Source: a virus
Virus record (IMG/VR): IMGVR_UViG_3300025313_000070
Coordinates: 1 to 36,852 of that record
Length of the DNA stretch: 36,852 nt
Direction: 5' to 3' (one strand)
Each line of letters starts with the position of its first letter. Positions within the stretch are counted from its first letter, which is position 1. Under the pieces are notes generated by a model that was given only the letters and a program-made list of their open reading frames with translations, searched no databases and was not told where the DNA came from. Shown piece by piece: positions 18,988 to 26,616 of the stretch. The translations under genes and the position numbers were made by a program.

Positions 18988-20043
18988 CGCCACCACCCGC
19001 GCCCGGGGGAACCACACTCCGCGCTTTATCAAGCCAATCCTCAATTCGCCACTCCACCCGCGCCCGGGGGAACCCGCTTTACACGATTCCCATGCACGAC
19101 GAATAGCCGCCACCCCACCCGCGCCCGGGGGAACCTCAGGCGCGGGGCGGGAAAGTGCATCAATGTAACGCCACCCCACCCGCGCCCGGGAGAATCCGCG
19201 CCGCTTTTATACCCGATGATCGCATCGACCGCCACCCCACCCGCGCCCGGGGGAACCTTGAGGCCGCTCCCTCGATCATGGACGACGAACCGCCACCCCA
19301 CCCGCGCCCGGGGGAACCTTTTCGGCGAGACCGCAGGACCGGGCGAGCTACCGCCACCCCACCCGCGCCCGGGGGAACCCTCTCCTCAGCTTCCTCGTAA
19401 AGTGCTTCAGGGCGCCACCCCACCCGCGCCCGGGGGAACCTTTTTCCTGGCGAAGTTCGACCAGTTCGCGAACCGCCACCCCACCCGCGCCCGGGGGAAC
19501 CACAGCCAGTTCGCCCCAGGCGTCCGCTACGCGCCGCCACCCCACCCGCGCCCGGGGGAACCCACGCCTCGTCCTCAGGCACGGCTCCAGAGTGACGCCA
19601 CCCCACCCGCGCCCGGGGGAACCTTGGGCACCGACTGGGCGCTGATTGGCAGCCGTCGCCACCCCACCCGCGCCCGGGGGAACCCAGCTTTCAAGCGAGG
19701 TGCGTCCTCAAAGGCGACGCCACCCCACCCGCGCCCGGGGGAACCGATCCCAGGTACAGCAAGCTGCGTTGGCATATCCGCCACCCCACCCGCGCCCGGG
19801 GGAACCAACTCAAGAGCCTGACCGGCGAGCTGGGCAAGCCGCCACCCCACCCGCGCCCGGGGGAACCAATCACCATATGGCGCGCAACGACACCAGCCAC
19901 CGCCACCCCACCCGGGGGAACCCGCGTCCGGTCTCGGCCTTCCCATCGTGATGACGCCACCGCCACCCCACCCGGGGGAACCCCTTTTCCCACCTGTCTT
20001 ACTAGGCACGACCCACGCCACCGCCACCCCACCCGGGGGAACC
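18988..20043 (-). CRISPR. CRISPR array, 18 repeats and 17 spacers
   Basis: On the minus strand the 28-nt repeat starts GGTTCCCCCGGGCGCGGG and ends TGGGGTGGCG. Most spacers are 33 nt, giving a 61-bp period as in type I-E arrays. Plus-strand repeat starts are 18988, 19047, then every 61 bp to 19901, followed by 19955 and 20016 if counted as 28-mers. The end near 18988 is decayed: repeat 1 lacks two C, repeat 2 has C to T, and the fourth repeat (19169) has two changes. The leader is therefore on the cas2 side and transcription is leftward. The last three repeats (19901-19922, 19955-19982, 20016-20043) lack six central bases. None of the spacers obviously matches this window by eye. Confidence 0.97.
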
Positions 20044-20318
20044 TCTAGGGGCTAACTCCCTGAGGCGCAACAGCTTTACTCATTTCAAAGAGCAGGTTCA
20101 CCGAGGCACGTGTGGGTTTTCCGCCTTCAAAACCCTGGTCTTGTCGCAACCCCGAGGGGCCTCCCGTCAACCAGGGAATCCAGTGCCGCTGCCTACCTGG
20201 AAAGGTGGTAGGACTTACAGCGGCAGCCACGCTGACTTGCATCGGCATGACCGGCTTAACGTCCGATCTTTGTATTTTGGCTAAACCGTAGATCGCCGAA
20301 GCGATAGCTGTGTATCTA
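20044..20318 (-). ncRNA. Leader and candidate tracrRNA
   Basis: Between cas2 and the array lie several perfect stems. Stem 1: TGCCGCTG/CAGCGGCA (20184-20191/20218-20225) enclosing CCTACC/GGTAGG (20192-20197/20207-20212). Stem 2: CCCTGGT/ACCAGGG (20133-20139/20170-20176) enclosing CCC/GGG with a 4-nt loop. Stem 3: GGGTTTT/AAAACCC (20114-20120/20129-20135), competing with stem 2 for three bases. At 20095-20122 the minus strand is a partial anti-repeat: against the canonical repeat 19 of 28 positions are complementary and two more are G-U. Anti-repeat at the 3' side after hairpins matches tracrRNA layout in tracr-dependent Cas12 systems. No clear promoter is seen. Confidence 0.5.
20292..20305 (-). 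terminator. UUCG-capped hairpin after cas2
   Basis: Read leftward, ATCGC-TTCG-GCGAT forms a 5-bp stem closed by a C(UUCG)G tetraloop, an extra-stable RNA motif, 14 nt after the cas2 stop. The loop has this form only on the minus strand, supporting leftward RNA. There is no U tract, so it may protect the cas mRNA end or mark processing rather than terminate. Confidence 0.5.
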
Positions 20319-20621
20319 TTATTTCTCGATGCGCGTCAACAGAAAACCATCAACATCGCAAAATTGTTTTACCGTATCACCAAGAACGCGCGAGCCTATG
20401 TTGCCGCTGGCGGCTTTATCGCGCCAAATCATAATGATAGTGCCACGATTCAATGTCTGATACCAATGTGTTATGACTTCCCATATTCTATCACGCGCAT
20501 CACGATTTAGTTGTGGGCTCACATAAATACCAGCAGAAATTTCAATCATTGCTGACCGAAGAAAACCGCGATAGCGCGGTTCAACATCCCGCGTGACAAT
20601 TAATGTCAGAGCGTGGCTCAT
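20319..20621 (-). CDS. cas2: CRISPR adaptation protein Cas2, type I-E-like
   Basis: 100 residues. The pattern LTLIVTRDVEPRYRGFLRSAMIEISAGIYVS aligns with the start of E. coli-type Cas2 ([28 protein letters not shown]), followed by RIWEVITHWYQ and a GTIIMIW strand. It is the dimeric partner that bridges two Cas1 dimers in the spacer integrase. Its ATG overlaps the cas1 stop by 4 bp, so both are translated together. It ends 275 bp from the array. This is the I-E lineage of Cas2, not the ferredoxin-like Cas2 usual for most Cas12 systems. Confidence 0.9.
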   Translation of the reverse strand: MSHALTLIVTRDVEPRYRGFLRSAMIEISAGIYVSPQLNRDARDRIWEVITHWYQTLNRGTIIMIWRDKAASGNIGSRVLGDTVKQFCDVDGFLLTRIEK

Positions 20622-21472
20622 GACTCTACAATCAGAAGTTTTATGCGCTCAATCATCGCAGAGATTAGGTTGTTATCCTCAAACGCGGCTGCAGCTCGTC
20701 GCCTGACAGTCCTTTCAAGGCTCTGCACTTCAGATGCCTCTTTCACGGCACCGAACGCAATGCGCAGCGTGATCGTATCGCGATAAAGATCTGCGACATC
20801 TAAGATAAACGCTTGTGATGAATCTTCGTGAACAAAGCCGAGCTGAGGAATTGCCGCAGTTGCCATCACCGCGATGGCCGCAGCCGCTCTAACCGCGCTA
20901 GAGGCGTGATTGATCGCTTGATTGGGAAGATCAGCGCTGCCTGGATTGCCGCGATCATAGTGCCGACCCTGCCAGTCTATGGAGAACTCCTCAGCGATCT
21001 TGCGGTATGACTCCTTTACGCGCGCCCCCTCTATGCCGCGCAGCACTGCGATATCTCGATGAGGTAAAATCTCACCGAGCCGAAATGCGTACATCTGCCG
21101 AGCGATGGCAAGACGAGACGAAGCCTTGGCCCAAAGTTCAGCTTGCTTACGCGCAAGGGCTGACGTCGCTGTCATCAGTGGCGGCGCGGTGTACAACCTT
21201 ACGCCGCCCTCACCAATAGCGGCGAGTGCTGTACCGTGATTGGCAAGGAGGCGAAGCGCGTCGTGCGTGACGCTCGATCCCGGCCCCAGCAACACGATGC
21301 TAATGGCTTGATGCGGGATTTCGTATTCGCCGGCCTGTAAAGCGCCGCCCGCTGTCATAAAGCGCAGGCAACCATCCGCAACATCAAGTCGCCCGCGATC
21401 CAGCAGAACGAGACCATGACGCGCTGAGTAGGGAATACGGACCTTATCGAGCCCCAAGCGCCCACTAAGCAT
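20618..21472 (-). CDS. cas1: CRISPR integrase Cas1, type I-E-like
   Basis: 284 residues from the ATG at 21472, which has GAGG about 7 nt upstream; a GTG at 21484 would add four residues. The order follows E. coli Cas1: an N-terminal beta domain (SISIVLLGPGSSVTHDALRLL-type, IGEGGVRLY), then the helical catalytic domain. Metal ligands are retained: Glu148 in RGIEGARV, His215 in GFVHEDSS and Asp225/Asp228 in LDVADLYR. The Glu-His and His-Asp spacings of 67 and 13 match E. coli (E141, H208, D221). It should be an active spacer integrase. It overlaps the effector gene by 8 bp, forming one operon. Confidence 0.93.
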   Translation of the reverse strand: MLSGRLGLDKVRIPYSARHGLVLLDRGRLDVADGCLRFMTAGGALQAGEYEIPHQAISIVLLGPGSSVTHDALRLLANHGTALAAIGEGGVRLYTAPPLMTATSALARKQAELWAKASSRLAIARQMYAFRLGEILPHRDIAVLRGIEGARVKESYRKIAEEFSIDWQGRHYDRGNPGSADLPNQAINHASSAVRAAAAIAVMATAAIPQLGFVHEDSSQAFILDVADLYRDTITLRIAFGAVKEASEVQSLERTVRRRAAAAFEDNNLISAMIERIKLLIVES

Positions 21473-23600
21473 TGTGCGCCTCACGATGCTTACGCAGCCG
21501 TTTCTCCGCGTTACGCGCCGCGTTGCGATTACGCGGAAGCACAGCGTCGCAGTCGGTACCGTCTGGCAAAACGCCGATACAGCGTAATAGACGTCTCCCG
21601 TCCTTCATCTGCGGATTCTTCGTTCCGCAACGTGAACATTCTTGAACTTCTGGTTCCAATCTATCTGCGATAAGAACGCTTCCTGGGCCTCGGAGATCGT
21701 TATATTTGTATTCCAGGAACTGCCGTCCCCTGGCCATAGCTACATGGCGCAGTAGCTTGCGTACCGGTTTTAGATTGCGAGGCTTCTTTGCTGCTCCATT
21801 ATCTTCTTTCTTTGCCTCGTTTTTCTTACTCTCGATTTGTTTTTCTTTCTGCTTTTGACGGCGCATCATCGGCGCCACGCTCATTTTTTGAACACTCACC
21901 GCATCAAATTTATGAACGATTTCATTCGTCACACGATGCAAAAATCCGTCACGGCGATCCCTCTCGATCGCCTCGCAGGCTGCCAGCCTGGCAGCGGATT
22001 TATAAAACAGTTTCGATCTCCTCACGCGCGGCCGCTTAAGCGGTTTCAGCGCGTTTGGATCGTGCCCCTTCTCCAATTTTCCAAGCCGCAGCCGCTCTTT
22101 GCGTGCTTTTAGCTTTTTCTCCTTTTCCTTCTGCGCTTCCAGTGCCCTGGAATTTTGTTTGCCTGCGACCAAGTGCACCGCAGTCAATTTCTTGTCGGCT
22201 GGTGGCATGGGGTATTCTTTTGTCTGCCCCCTATTATCATAGGTCGTGAAAACGATGCTCGCGGCGATTTTCACACCCGCTGTACGCCCTGTCTTGGGTA
22301 ACAGTGTAGGCTGCGGGCGTTCCCACTGACACGAGAGATACCACCGATCGCCCTGGCGCCAGATACGCCCTCCGAGCAAACCAAGCTGTGCGCCGATCAC
22401 GAGTCCCGGTTTTAGATTGCGCTCCAGTAGCTCCGCAACGAGCTGACGGGGAATTTCGCAACGCATCGAGCCGCAACCGTTTGGCAACTGCACGCGACCC
22501 GCGGCGACATCGAAAAACATGGTCGTGTTAGGAAAATACACGCTACCGGCGGCATAGGCCTGTTTTTTGAATTTCGGAAATCCGGTCTTCCTGGCGGACT
22601 CGTCGCCAGCGGCGGCCTTCGCGCGCTCTTTGAGCATAGTCTGCAGCGCTTTGACGAGGTCTTTCACCACAGTCTGAGCAGCGTGGCTCGGCAGATCCCC
22701 AATCCACTCAGTACGCGGTTCTGCTTTCAGGCGCGCCATGATCATCGCAAGTTCGTGTTCCCATATGAACAGTCGCGGTCCGGGACAATGATTGGCCGCC
22801 TCTTCGACGATTTTGCAATCGCAGGTTCCACCGTGCGCAATGAGCCAGGCGAGGATATCCTCAGCGCGTCCTGCGAGCTCATGTTTCTCGAAATATGCGA
22901 CCGTGCGCGCGTGCGTGTGGTCGCATTCTTTTTGTTTGAGGCCTCCTCGCAGTGCCCCGAAGAGGTCAAGCAGGATCGCCTGGTCAACAGGCAGGTCGTC
23001 TGCGGGCGCAGCGCGTTTGATTTTTGTCAGCAGCTCGGCGGTAGGCGGCGCCGGGCAATATTTGGCCGCCGTGCTGATTGCTGTGCAATCACACTCGCCC
23101 TTAAAATCCTTAAGCCAGGCGATGATATCTGCTGTCCTGGCTCCGTGTCCGGTCTCATCCAACCATGCGCGCGTCAGTGCATAGGGTTGGTTGACGTTGC
23201 ATTTGCACTTAGCGCCTTTATCCAGGGTATGGCGCAATGCATCGAACAGCCCGAGCAGAATTTTCCGATCCCCTGGAAACCGTTCTCTGGGGGGGTGTTT
23301 TACCGTGCCGTCTCGTTTGAGTACAAATGACCCGTCCTTCTTGCACTTTCCGTGCTGATAGACAATGAGGGCCTTAGCGTGGTTTTCCTCGACAACGCGC
23401 GCCCAGATCGACCGCCAGCCGAGCTTTGAGCGCGTGTTTTTCGCACCGTACGCGGCGGTCTCCAGATTGAGGAGCAGGTTCCATAGGCTGATGCAGCGTC
23501 GCCGCCACATGTCCATCAGCGTCACTTGCCGGTCGGTCGGATAAATTCGCATCTTGGTGCCGCGTAGCACCACGTCATCTTTCTTCTCTCGCTTCGCCAT
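21465..23600 (-). CDS. TnpB/Cas12-like effector with degenerate RuvC
   Basis: 711 residues; AAAGGG precedes the ATG. The N-terminus (TKMRIYPTDRQVTLMDMWRRRCISLWNLLLN) is the TnpB/Cas12 wedge-type opening. Two Cys-rich copies follow at ~114-184 and ~209-274. Residues ~340-435 resemble the TnpB beta-barrel part (FPKFKKQ, FPNTTMFFDVAAGRVQLP). RuvC-I is at ~442-457 (GVKIAASIVFTTYDNRG), with Lys444 where Asp is expected. RuvC-II is at ~565-578 (FDAVSVQKMSVAPM), with Gln571 for Glu. A zinc ribbon uses Cys655, Cys658, Cys674 and Cys684. RuvC-III is at 689-698 (PRNRNAARNA), with Asn691 for Asp. This predicts RNA-guided DNA binding without cleavage. Cas12m is a possible relative, but the subtype is not assignable by eye. 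Confidence 0.85.
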   Translation of the reverse strand: MAKREKKDDVVLRGTKMRIYPTDRQVTLMDMWRRRCISLWNLLLNLETAAYGAKNTRSKLGWRSIWARVVEENHAKALIVYQHGKCKKDGSFVLKRDGTVKHPPRERFPGDRKILLGLFDALRHTLDKGAKCKCNVNQPYALTRAWLDETGHGARTADIIAWLKDFKGECDCTAISTAAKYCPAPPTAELLTKIKRAAPADDLPVDQAILLDLFGALRGGLKQKECDHTHARTVAYFEKHELAGRAEDILAWLIAHGGTCDCKIVEEAANHCPGPRLFIWEHELAMIMARLKAEPRTEWIGDLPSHAAQTVVKDLVKALQTMLKERAKAAAGDESARKTGFPKFKKQAYAAGSVYFPNTTMFFDVAAGRVQLPNGCGSMRCEIPRQLVAELLERNLKPGLVIGAQLGLLGGRIWRQGDRWYLSCQWERPQPTLLPKTGRTAGVKIAASIVFTTYDNRGQTKEYPMPPADKKLTAVHLVAGKQNSRALEAQKEKEKKLKARKERLRLGKLEKGHDPNALKPLKRPRVRRSKLFYKSAARLAACEAIERDRRDGFLHRVTNEIVHKFDAVSVQKMSVAPMMRRQKQKEKQIESKKNEAKKEDNGAAKKPRNLKPVRKLLRHVAMARGRQFLEYKYNDLRGPGSVLIADRLEPEVQECSRCGTKNPQMKDGRRLLRCIGVLPDGTDCDAVLPRNRNAARNAEKRLRKHREAHNA

Positions 23601-24907: not shown

Positions 24908-25977
24908 CGCTTGCTCCCAAATTTGATAATCTTCCCGCCGCCCTCGCGCTTGTCACGCGAGCTCCGGGCCACACGTTGCTTGTCGATGTGCTTAGTGTAG
25001 CTCTGTATCTGCCCCACGGATATCCCGATATCCGCAGATATCTCTCCATCGCTGGACCCGGCCAGCCGTCTGTCGCAGATCGCCGTAGCGCGCAGCCCGT
25101 GAATTGTCAGCTTCAGACCAGCAAGGGCCGGTTGCGCCCGCCGCCAGCGGTTCCAATGGCTGCGTAGTGCCATCTCGGTGAATTCTGCGTTCTGCGCTGT
25201 CATAAGCAGACGGCCGCTCGGATGGACTGACCACTGGCGGATAGTCGCTATCTCTTCCCGGAGCAGCGGCACAAAATGCGGCTTGTCCCGCAATTTGCTG
25301 ATGCGCAGATGCACGCCATCATGCGCGACATTGGCAATTGTCATCCGGACGAGGTCAGCCTCGCGCTGCCCGGTGGCCCGGCCGAGGAATGCCATTCGCT
25401 GTAGCGCCTCTGGGGCATTCGCTTGCACGTAGCCGTATGCGTCGTCCGGCCAGGGATGCGTGCCGTCCGTCTTAGCCTTCAGATTGTCTACGTCAGCGGC
25501 GGGGTTTTCTTTATTCTTGCGATAGCCACGCTTGATTCCCCACTTAAAAAGCGTGTCCAGCACCTGCAGGAATTTATTCGCAGAGTGCGGCCGTAACGCC
25601 ATCGCGTCGCGCATTTGGTAAATGTGATGCTCGCCCATGTCAGCGACCAGCATTGCCGCTGCAACGTCCAGCAGGCGAGCGAAATTGTAGGAGTAGTTTC
25701 GCTGGGTAGCCGGCCGCAGGTCTGCCCATTCGGGACTGGCCCTGTATTCGCGGATCAGCGCCGCAAAAGTGCCGCCATCGTGTGTTGGCATATGCATCGC
25801 GGCATGCAGGCGCCTGTGAAACTCCGGGTCGGTAGGATCTTTGCCGAGAGCGACACGCTCGCCCGCTTTGCCCGTCCCGCGTTTCGGCGCGTAGTAGTAG
25901 TATCGGATGCCCCTTTTGTTGGTTGCGTAGTACACCCCCTCAGGGAGATTCCGTCCTTCGGTGCGACGTCTGCCCAT
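24904..25977 (-). CDS. int: Tyrosine site-specific integrase
   Basis: 357 residues; AAGGGGG precedes the ATG by about 6 nt. An N-terminal arm-binding domain (GVYYATNKRGIRYYYYAPKRG) is followed by a SAM-like core-binding domain (~66-155) and the catalytic domain. Visible catalytic residues are Arg205 (GQREADL), Lys228, His293-Arg296 (IHGLRATA) and Tyr327 (QSYTKH); the usual second His before the Tyr appears to be Ile or Ser. It would recombine phage attP with host attB. The next gene upstream is an excisionase-like protein overlapping by 38 bp. Confidence 0.92.
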   Translation of the reverse strand: MGRRRTEGRNLPEGVYYATNKRGIRYYYYAPKRGTGKAGERVALGKDPTDPEFHRRLHAAMHMPTHDGGTFAALIREYRASPEWADLRPATQRNYSYNFARLLDVAAAMLVADMGEHHIYQMRDAMALRPHSANKFLQVLDTLFKWGIKRGYRKNKENPAADVDNLKAKTDGTHPWPDDAYGYVQANAPEALQRMAFLGRATGQREADLVRMTIANVAHDGVHLRISKLRDKPHFVPLLREEIATIRQWSVHPSGRLLMTAQNAEFTEMALRSHWNRWRRAQPALAGLKLTIHGLRATAICDRRLAGSSDGEISADIGISVGQIQSYTKHIDKQRVARSSRDKREGGGKIIKFGSKR

Positions 25978-26452
25978 AACGCCCCCTTAGTGCCTCGATG
26001 TTAAAAGTGGTATCGACTGCTGGAACCTGTGACCCTGCACGGCGGGAGATCCATTCGTCTACTTCCGTCCAGCGCCAACGGGGCGTTGTCCCCGAAATCC
26101 CCAGGCGGTACGGTTTAGGTAGGACTCCTGCCTTGACCCAGTCGTCCCATGTCCGCGGACAGATATCGAGACGCTGCGCCCCAGTCTCGCGTGAGACATA
26201 GAGCGCGTTGTTCCTCTCCTCGATGTTAAAAGTGGTATCGACTGCTGGAACCTGTGACCCTGCACGGCGGGAGATCCATTCGTCTACTTCCGTCCAGCGC
26301 CAACGGGGCGTTGTCCCCGAAATCCCCAGGCGGTACGGTTTAGGTAGGATTCCTGCCTTGACCCAGTCGTCCCATGTCCGCGGACAGATATCGAGACGCT
26401 GCGCCCCAGTCTCGCGTGAGACATAGAGCGCGTTGTTCCTCTCCGATCTCAT
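25940..26452 (-). CDS. Excisionase-like protein with duplicated DNA-binding unit
   Basis: 170 residues from the ATG at 26452. It consists of two 75-residue copies in tandem, identical except for one Ile/Val difference. Each copy contains an AlpA/MerR-type helix-turn-helix (YVSRETGAQRLDICPRTWDDWVKAG), a wing with a proline turn (LPKPYRLGISGTTPRWRW) and a TEVDEWISRRAG helix. A single copy would have the size of a normal small excisionase or AlpA protein. It sits between early genes and the integrase, typical for directionality factors. The duplication is in frame and very recent. Confidence 0.8.
   Translation of the reverse strand: MRSERNNALYVSRETGAQRLDICPRTWDDWVKAGILPKPYRLGISGTTPRWRWTEVDEWISRRAGSQVPAVDTTFNIEERNNALYVSRETGAQRLDICPRTWDDWVKAGVLPKPYRLGISGTTPRWRWTEVDEWISRRAGSQVPAVDTTFNIEALRGRYGQTSHRRTESP
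25996..26443. repeat. 225-bp in-frame tandem duplication
   Basis: 25996-26220 is repeated at 26221-26443 with one base difference (aggactcc versus aggattcc). The unit is 75 codons, so the reading frame is kept. Near identity shows that the event is recent, or that the copies are kept alike by recombination or, less interestingly, an assembly artefact. Confidence 0.95.
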
Positions 26453-26616
26453 TGCGGGCACACCTCAATGGCTGCCGCCGCATTGTGCCCTGACGTTGCT
26501 GGGCGGTAGATTGCGGCGTATGCTGCAGAGACAAGCGCGCGGAAACCTTGGCTGACGTGCACCATCTCTGGCCAGTGCTTGTTCTCGTATTCCGCGCGCT
26601 CGCCACGATCGAGCAT
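26449..26616 (-). CDS. Small early-operon protein
   Basis: 55 residues starting MLDRGERAEYENKHWPEMVH; the stop overlaps the excisionase-like start (ATGA), so it is coupled to it. It has a charged N-terminal half and an Ala-rich helix (FRALVSAAYAAIYRPA). No family is recognised. The ribosome site is weak (GGGG directly before ATG), which suggests translation by coupling from the small frame just upstream. Confidence 0.5.
   Translation of the reverse strand: MLDRGERAEYENKHWPEMVHVSQGFRALVSAAYAAIYRPATSGHNAAAAIEVCPQ

Follow-up and report, generated by a model that had tools for sequence, protein, structure and literature searches.

The window, that is, the whole stretch of DNA analysed here, is the virus record IMGVR_UViG_3300025313_000070, 36,852 nt (36.9 kb) in length. 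It carries head/connector, RecT and DnaB-like genes, which fit a tailed phage. A CRISPR array, its leader and the genes encoding Cas2e, Cas1e and a TnpB-like effector all lie on the minus strand. The array (18988–20043) comprises 18 repeats and 17 spacers and is read downwards from its leader end at 20043. The leader (20044–20318) adjoins the first repeat, near which the leader motifs CTTTG and TAGA/AGA are kept in related phages. It is followed by Cas2e (100 aa, 20319–20621; TIGR01873, E=2.5e-23, 82 bits against a cut-off of 33.15) and Cas1e (288 aa, 20618–21484; TIGR03638, E=4.4e-86, 288.4 bits against a cut-off of 215.6), the latter having relatives in phages at 73–78% identity. Both proteins pass the curated cut-offs of the I-E families, hence the adaptation module is of type I-E, and the array itself shows type I-E adaptation features, with a 28-nt repeat and a 61-nt unit. 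Genes of Cascade and Cas3 were absent from the proteins scanned around cas1, which represent a part of the ORFs of the 37-kb record. Elsewhere in the window, an excisionase-like HTH gene (25940–26461) contains a perfect 225-bp tandem duplication (25993–26442), either an in-frame domain duplication or an assembly artefact.

The effector gene (21465–23600, minus strand) encodes a TnpB-like type V protein of 711 aa with a DUF2695 segment at residues 218–265, a segment found also in the related phage locus L014. A single TnpB-derived effector adjoining the array is a type V feature, here with a profile match below the cut-off: NF040570 yields E=5.7e-24 and 85 of the 100 bits of its curated threshold, and the matches to the TnpB/Cas12 models are below their cut-offs too. 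The best Foldseek matches, obtained with a low-confidence model (pLDDT 53), are TnpB, Cas12f and Cas12m. The RuvC positions D/E/D are occupied by K/Q/N. The RuvC-I motif is GVKI, assigned by motif only, and in the comparison with TnpB the RuvC-II Glu aligns with Gln and the RuvC-III Asp with Asn, so that an intact D-E-D triad was not observed. Seven relatives of the effector were found in IMG/VR records, and those retaining the RuvC region have K/Q/N or close variants; none was seen beside the 80 bacterial Cas1e loci fetched. Given these residues, the effector is probably a nuclease-dead, DNA-binding protein. If so, these phages have joined an integrase of type I-E to a type V effector that is nuclease-dead and would act by binding, like Cas12m. 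The latter (type V-M) and other TnpB-derived effectors that do not cleave DNA are likewise compact and have altered RuvC residues, whereas the present family differs in the K/Q/N combination, in the DUF2695 segment of some members, and in having its own Cas1e–Cas2e; typical V-U systems lack acquisition genes (PMC11013384).

The normal 28-nt repeat (R28) reads, on the minus strand, GGTTCCCCCGGGCGCGGGTGGGGTGGCG. Exactly three units, all of them leader-proximal, contain instead a 22-nt shortened core (R22), GGTTCCCCCGGGTGGGGTGGCG. Counted from the leader, the unit lengths are 61, 60, 55 and then 61 nt all the way; where one old degenerate repeat seemed to give units of 60 and 62 nt, the search pattern had shifted the register. 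Beyond the change, seen from the leader, the first intact 28-nt repeat occupies 19840–19867. It is adjoined by the spacer 19868–19900, whose first five bases (19896–19900) are GTGGC, and then by the oldest shortened repeat (19901–19922, 22 nt), so that R22 here continues directly into the spacer, GTGGCTGGTG..., beginning with GTGGCT. Next come the second spacer (19923–19954), of 32 nt if the repeat before it is counted as 28 nt, or of 33 nt including the first G, and the second repeat (19955–19982, 28 nt), formed by the R22 core at 19961–19982, GTGGC at 19956–19960 and G at 19955. The youngest spacer (19983–20015, 33 nt) and the youngest repeat (20016–20043, 28 nt; core at 20022–20043, GTGGCG at 20016–20021) complete the series. 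In the two younger repeats R22 is thus followed by GTGGCG and then by differing, unrelated spacers. As GTGGCG is also the terminal hexamer of the normal repeat, these repeats end in a perfect tandem hexamer, GTGGCGGTGGCG.

An earlier note on this DNA is thereby confirmed base for base, coordinates included; it had described three leader-proximal repeats lacking six central bases, the oldest being 22 nt long and followed by a spacer starting with GTGGC, and the two younger ones restored to 28 nt by GTGGC plus G, with no mention of the identity of GTGGCG to the terminal hexamer. The array contains a second indel, in the terminal repeat (18988–19013), which is 26 nt long and has lost two of four G near its end; it lies at the dead end of the array and is not inherited.

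The six-base deletion has five equivalent placements, starting at repeat position 9, 10, 11, 12 or 13, and removes one arm of the direct repeat CGGGCG|CGGG. Such a 6-nt deletion between two CGGG copies is what slippage would be expected to leave. Since 55 = 61 – 6, a single deletion of this size in a normal unit suffices to explain the oldest short unit. Spacers enter an array at its leader end, hence age increases with distance from the leader, and of the three short repeats the one at 19901–19922 is the oldest. The repeat at 19840–19867 is intact, and therefore the deletion does not predate the uptake of the spacer 19868–19900: as we infer from the order of units, it arose either in the course of that acquisition, for instance when the gaps were filled, or at some time between it and the following one. 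In either case the phage array gained at least two spacers after the deletion, as the earlier note had it.

The probability that a spacer starts with GTGGC by chance is about 0.0013 as calculated from the spacer composition and 0.0014 as counted in 2,469 bacterial spacers, and that of two new spacers independently doing so is about 2e-6. The older spacer was thus the source of the five bases. The earlier note's claim that five bases of the adjoining spacer became part of the new repeat accounts for the 22-nt core, for the units of 55, 60 and 61 nt and for the presence of GTGGC in all three units; moreover, a deletion followed by two acquisitions is the only account that covers the core, the unit lengths, GTGGC and the T-to-G change described below with one indel. 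A search of viral contigs, phages, plasmids and related phage records yielded no protospacers for the three leader-proximal spacers or for any other spacer of the array, and thus none that would confirm GTGGC as part of the older protospacer.

In the deleted repeat, a perfect 14-nt copy of the native repeat end is present at position 22, and it was passed over; at position 27, the site actually used, only 6 nt agree with the native end. As the better sequence match was left unused, the distance from the leader side seems to have decided the cut: with six nucleotides deleted, the second integration still took place at 27 nt, where 28 is usual. We infer that the enzyme inserting spacers measures distance and does not read the repeat end. 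The first 12 bases of the repeat are unaltered by the deletion and the remainder is shifted; judging by the sequence, the anchor of the ruler must lie within these 12 bases or at the leader junction. Goren and colleagues are said to have found, with engineered E. coli repeats, that the repeat size in type I-E is set by the distance from motifs inside the repeat, there reportedly being two molecular rulers that place the second cut 16 and 8 bp from their anchors. The cut observed here at 27–28 is 15–16 bp downstream of position 12 and would fit the longer, 16-bp ruler, whereas the 8-bp anchor would predict a cut at 22. A ruler also appears to be the normal state of affairs, as the unit length hardly varies: only 28 of 2,495 bacterial units deviate from 61 nt.

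The best overall explanation, to which we assign a probability of roughly 0.8, is a deletion followed by spacer capture at a distance set by the ruler. The proposed course of events is as follows. Slippage between the CGGG direct repeats would have removed 6 bp from the repeat then closest to the leader, no earlier than the acquisition of the spacer 19868–19900, and the resulting 22-nt repeat would have served as the integration site for the next spacer. Cas1e–Cas2e would have made its normal attack at the leader–repeat junction and the second attack at the measured 27 bp, a point five bases into the older spacer. Filling of the gaps would then have given the new repeat a copy of the 22-nt core together with GTGGC, the G at position 28 being supplied by the incoming DNA, and a second acquisition would have copied the rebuilt 28-nt repeat or, again, 27 nt plus G.

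The captured GTGGC coincides, in register, with positions 23–27 of the native repeat, a coincidence of about 1 in 750. This match is the main limit of the earlier note's argument, as the sequence may have helped at the cut. Either it was luck that the older spacer restored the native bases, or acquisition went on solely thanks to the suitable end that this spacer happened to provide at the measured distance; both readings include the ruler, and a single case does not separate them. The second one, a variant of the preferred explanation in which distance and sequence act jointly and the crippled repeat kept acquiring only because GTGGC had been restored, is given somewhat less than an even chance. 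It would account for the 1-in-750 coincidence, the case being observed because it survived, and it agrees with the lowered efficiency of repeat-length mutants and with type V-A, where both a ruler and a sequence are required; against it stands that this is a single case. In Francisella novicida type V-A, Cas1–Cas2 is found beside Cas12 and uses a ruler plus the sequence of the repeat end (PMC13034035). This is a different system, in which changes of the repeat length drastically lowered full-site integration (PMC13034035).

If the second cut were set mainly by sequence, with the integrase recognising the native end GTGGC resupplied by the older spacer, the extension would be no footprint of a ruler. 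The in-register identity speaks for it, but the longer native end ignored at position 22 speaks against, and we consider it improbable.

Position 28 is T in the template but G in the first repeat to be rebuilt, whose unit measures 60 nt; the copy hence comprised 27 nt, and the G would have arrived with the new spacer. The earlier note's proposal of a duplicated fixed length is therefore borne out as to the ruler, to within one base, but the first copy made after the deletion was 27 nt rather than 28. Its further proposal, that the last base came from the incoming spacer, would apply to the first event by virtue of the T-to-G change and the 60-nt unit, while in the second event either 28 nt or 27 nt plus G were copied.

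We also considered that acquisition might normally duplicate 27 nt and add a PAM-derived G. This mode fits the T-to-G change, but position 28 is G in 137 of 137 phage repeats (the window, L010–L016 and L125, the oldest short repeat being left aside), one apparent C there being the same register effect of the search pattern. In the bacterial relatives (L025–L104), with repeats of 28 nt, the 29th base is C in 88% of cases, which points to a PAM-derived base with 12% of exceptions; in the phage arrays position 29 is nearly free, with no fixed base. At the bacterial rate of 12%, zero exceptions out of 137 at phage position 28 would have a probability of about 4e-8. Thus we prefer, as likelier though not proven, the view that position 28 belongs to the duplicated repeat and the usual length is 28. 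On that view the first post-deletion event fell one base short, which counts against the best overall explanation; were G always spacer-derived, the ruler would be 27 throughout.

The tandem hexamer at the end of the younger repeats could also be produced by compensating changes within the repeat, a 6-nt deletion and a tandem duplication of the terminal GTGGCG, with no involvement of the spacer. Three indels are then needed, one of them removing exactly 6 further nt from the older spacer to yield the 55-nt unit and T at position 28; moreover, the only strongly altered bacterial repeats, five of 2,484, are all terminal. Hence this account is very unlikely. Still less probable is that the leader-proximal part recombined in from a phage with an altered repeat, the 55-nt unit being the junction: recombination between arrays is possible in general, with nothing specific to suggest it here, but a pattern search of viral contigs found neither the normal nor the shortened repeat, and the altered repeat is this array's own repeat minus six bases. 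Least credible of all is an assembly artefact in a repetitive region of a single assembled virus record that also contains the 225-bp tandem duplication, as three units share the deletion, have three unique spacers and form a consistent series of lengths.

A comparison with relatives, which the earlier note had called for, revealed no similar case in eight related phage arrays. These are the seven loci L010–L016, with Cas1 73–78% identical, and L125; all have 28-nt repeats of very different sequence and 61-nt units (one of 60). Nor did we find a similar case among 2,484 bacterial type I-E repeats, a sample of roughly 70 arrays beside one Cas1e clade, in which clearly odd units are not trailed by changed repeats on the leader side. 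Candidates rejected on these grounds were units of 51, 63, 67 and 69 nt, after which no altered repeats follow. In the phage array L024, a 55-nt unit is due to a plain 6-nt loss at the spacer–repeat border and is not inherited.

The cut at 27–28 with the first 12 bases intact resembles the Goren type I-E rulers in fitting a 16-bp distance, but those repeats were engineered in E. coli, whereas here the deletion is natural, inherited and in a phage, and displaces the region of the 8-bp anchor. A laboratory precedent is provided by repeat mutants of the S. thermophilus type II-A system with deletions downstream of the ruler element (Kim et al. 2019, PMC6895254); one base was involved there, compared with five bases here, taken up by a type I-E integrase and followed by further acquisition. 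The ruler principle was thus already known from laboratory mutants, and a natural, inherited five-base case in a phage, none being described in the literature searched, appears new to us.

The array may be regarded as a natural experiment on the Cas1–Cas2 ruler, carried out in a phage and not by strain engineering: after a loss of bases, a repeat can regain its length with bases taken from spacer DNA and stay functional in acquisition. This suggests a possible mode of repeat sequence change, with a searchable signature of one short unit followed by extended repeats on the leader side. It seems doubtful that repeats generally change in sequence, at constant length, by capturing spacer bases after indels; if they do, this array would show such a change halfway, and the strong divergence of the 28-nt repeats of its relatives would be due partly to the same process.

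The repeats of L010–L016 and L125 are now far removed in sequence from the usual type I-E repeat and diverge strongly among relatives, the leader end (AGA) and the first GG being kept throughout. In L013 (2591–3139) two spacers each occur twice in the array, one pair as adjacent copies, suggesting internal duplication. L125 (7981–8546) has the effector and a 12-repeat array; its cas1 is cut after about 20 codons and cas2 is missing, so that, as read from the sequence, acquisition has been lost with nearly all of cas1 and with cas2, and the array has been kept.
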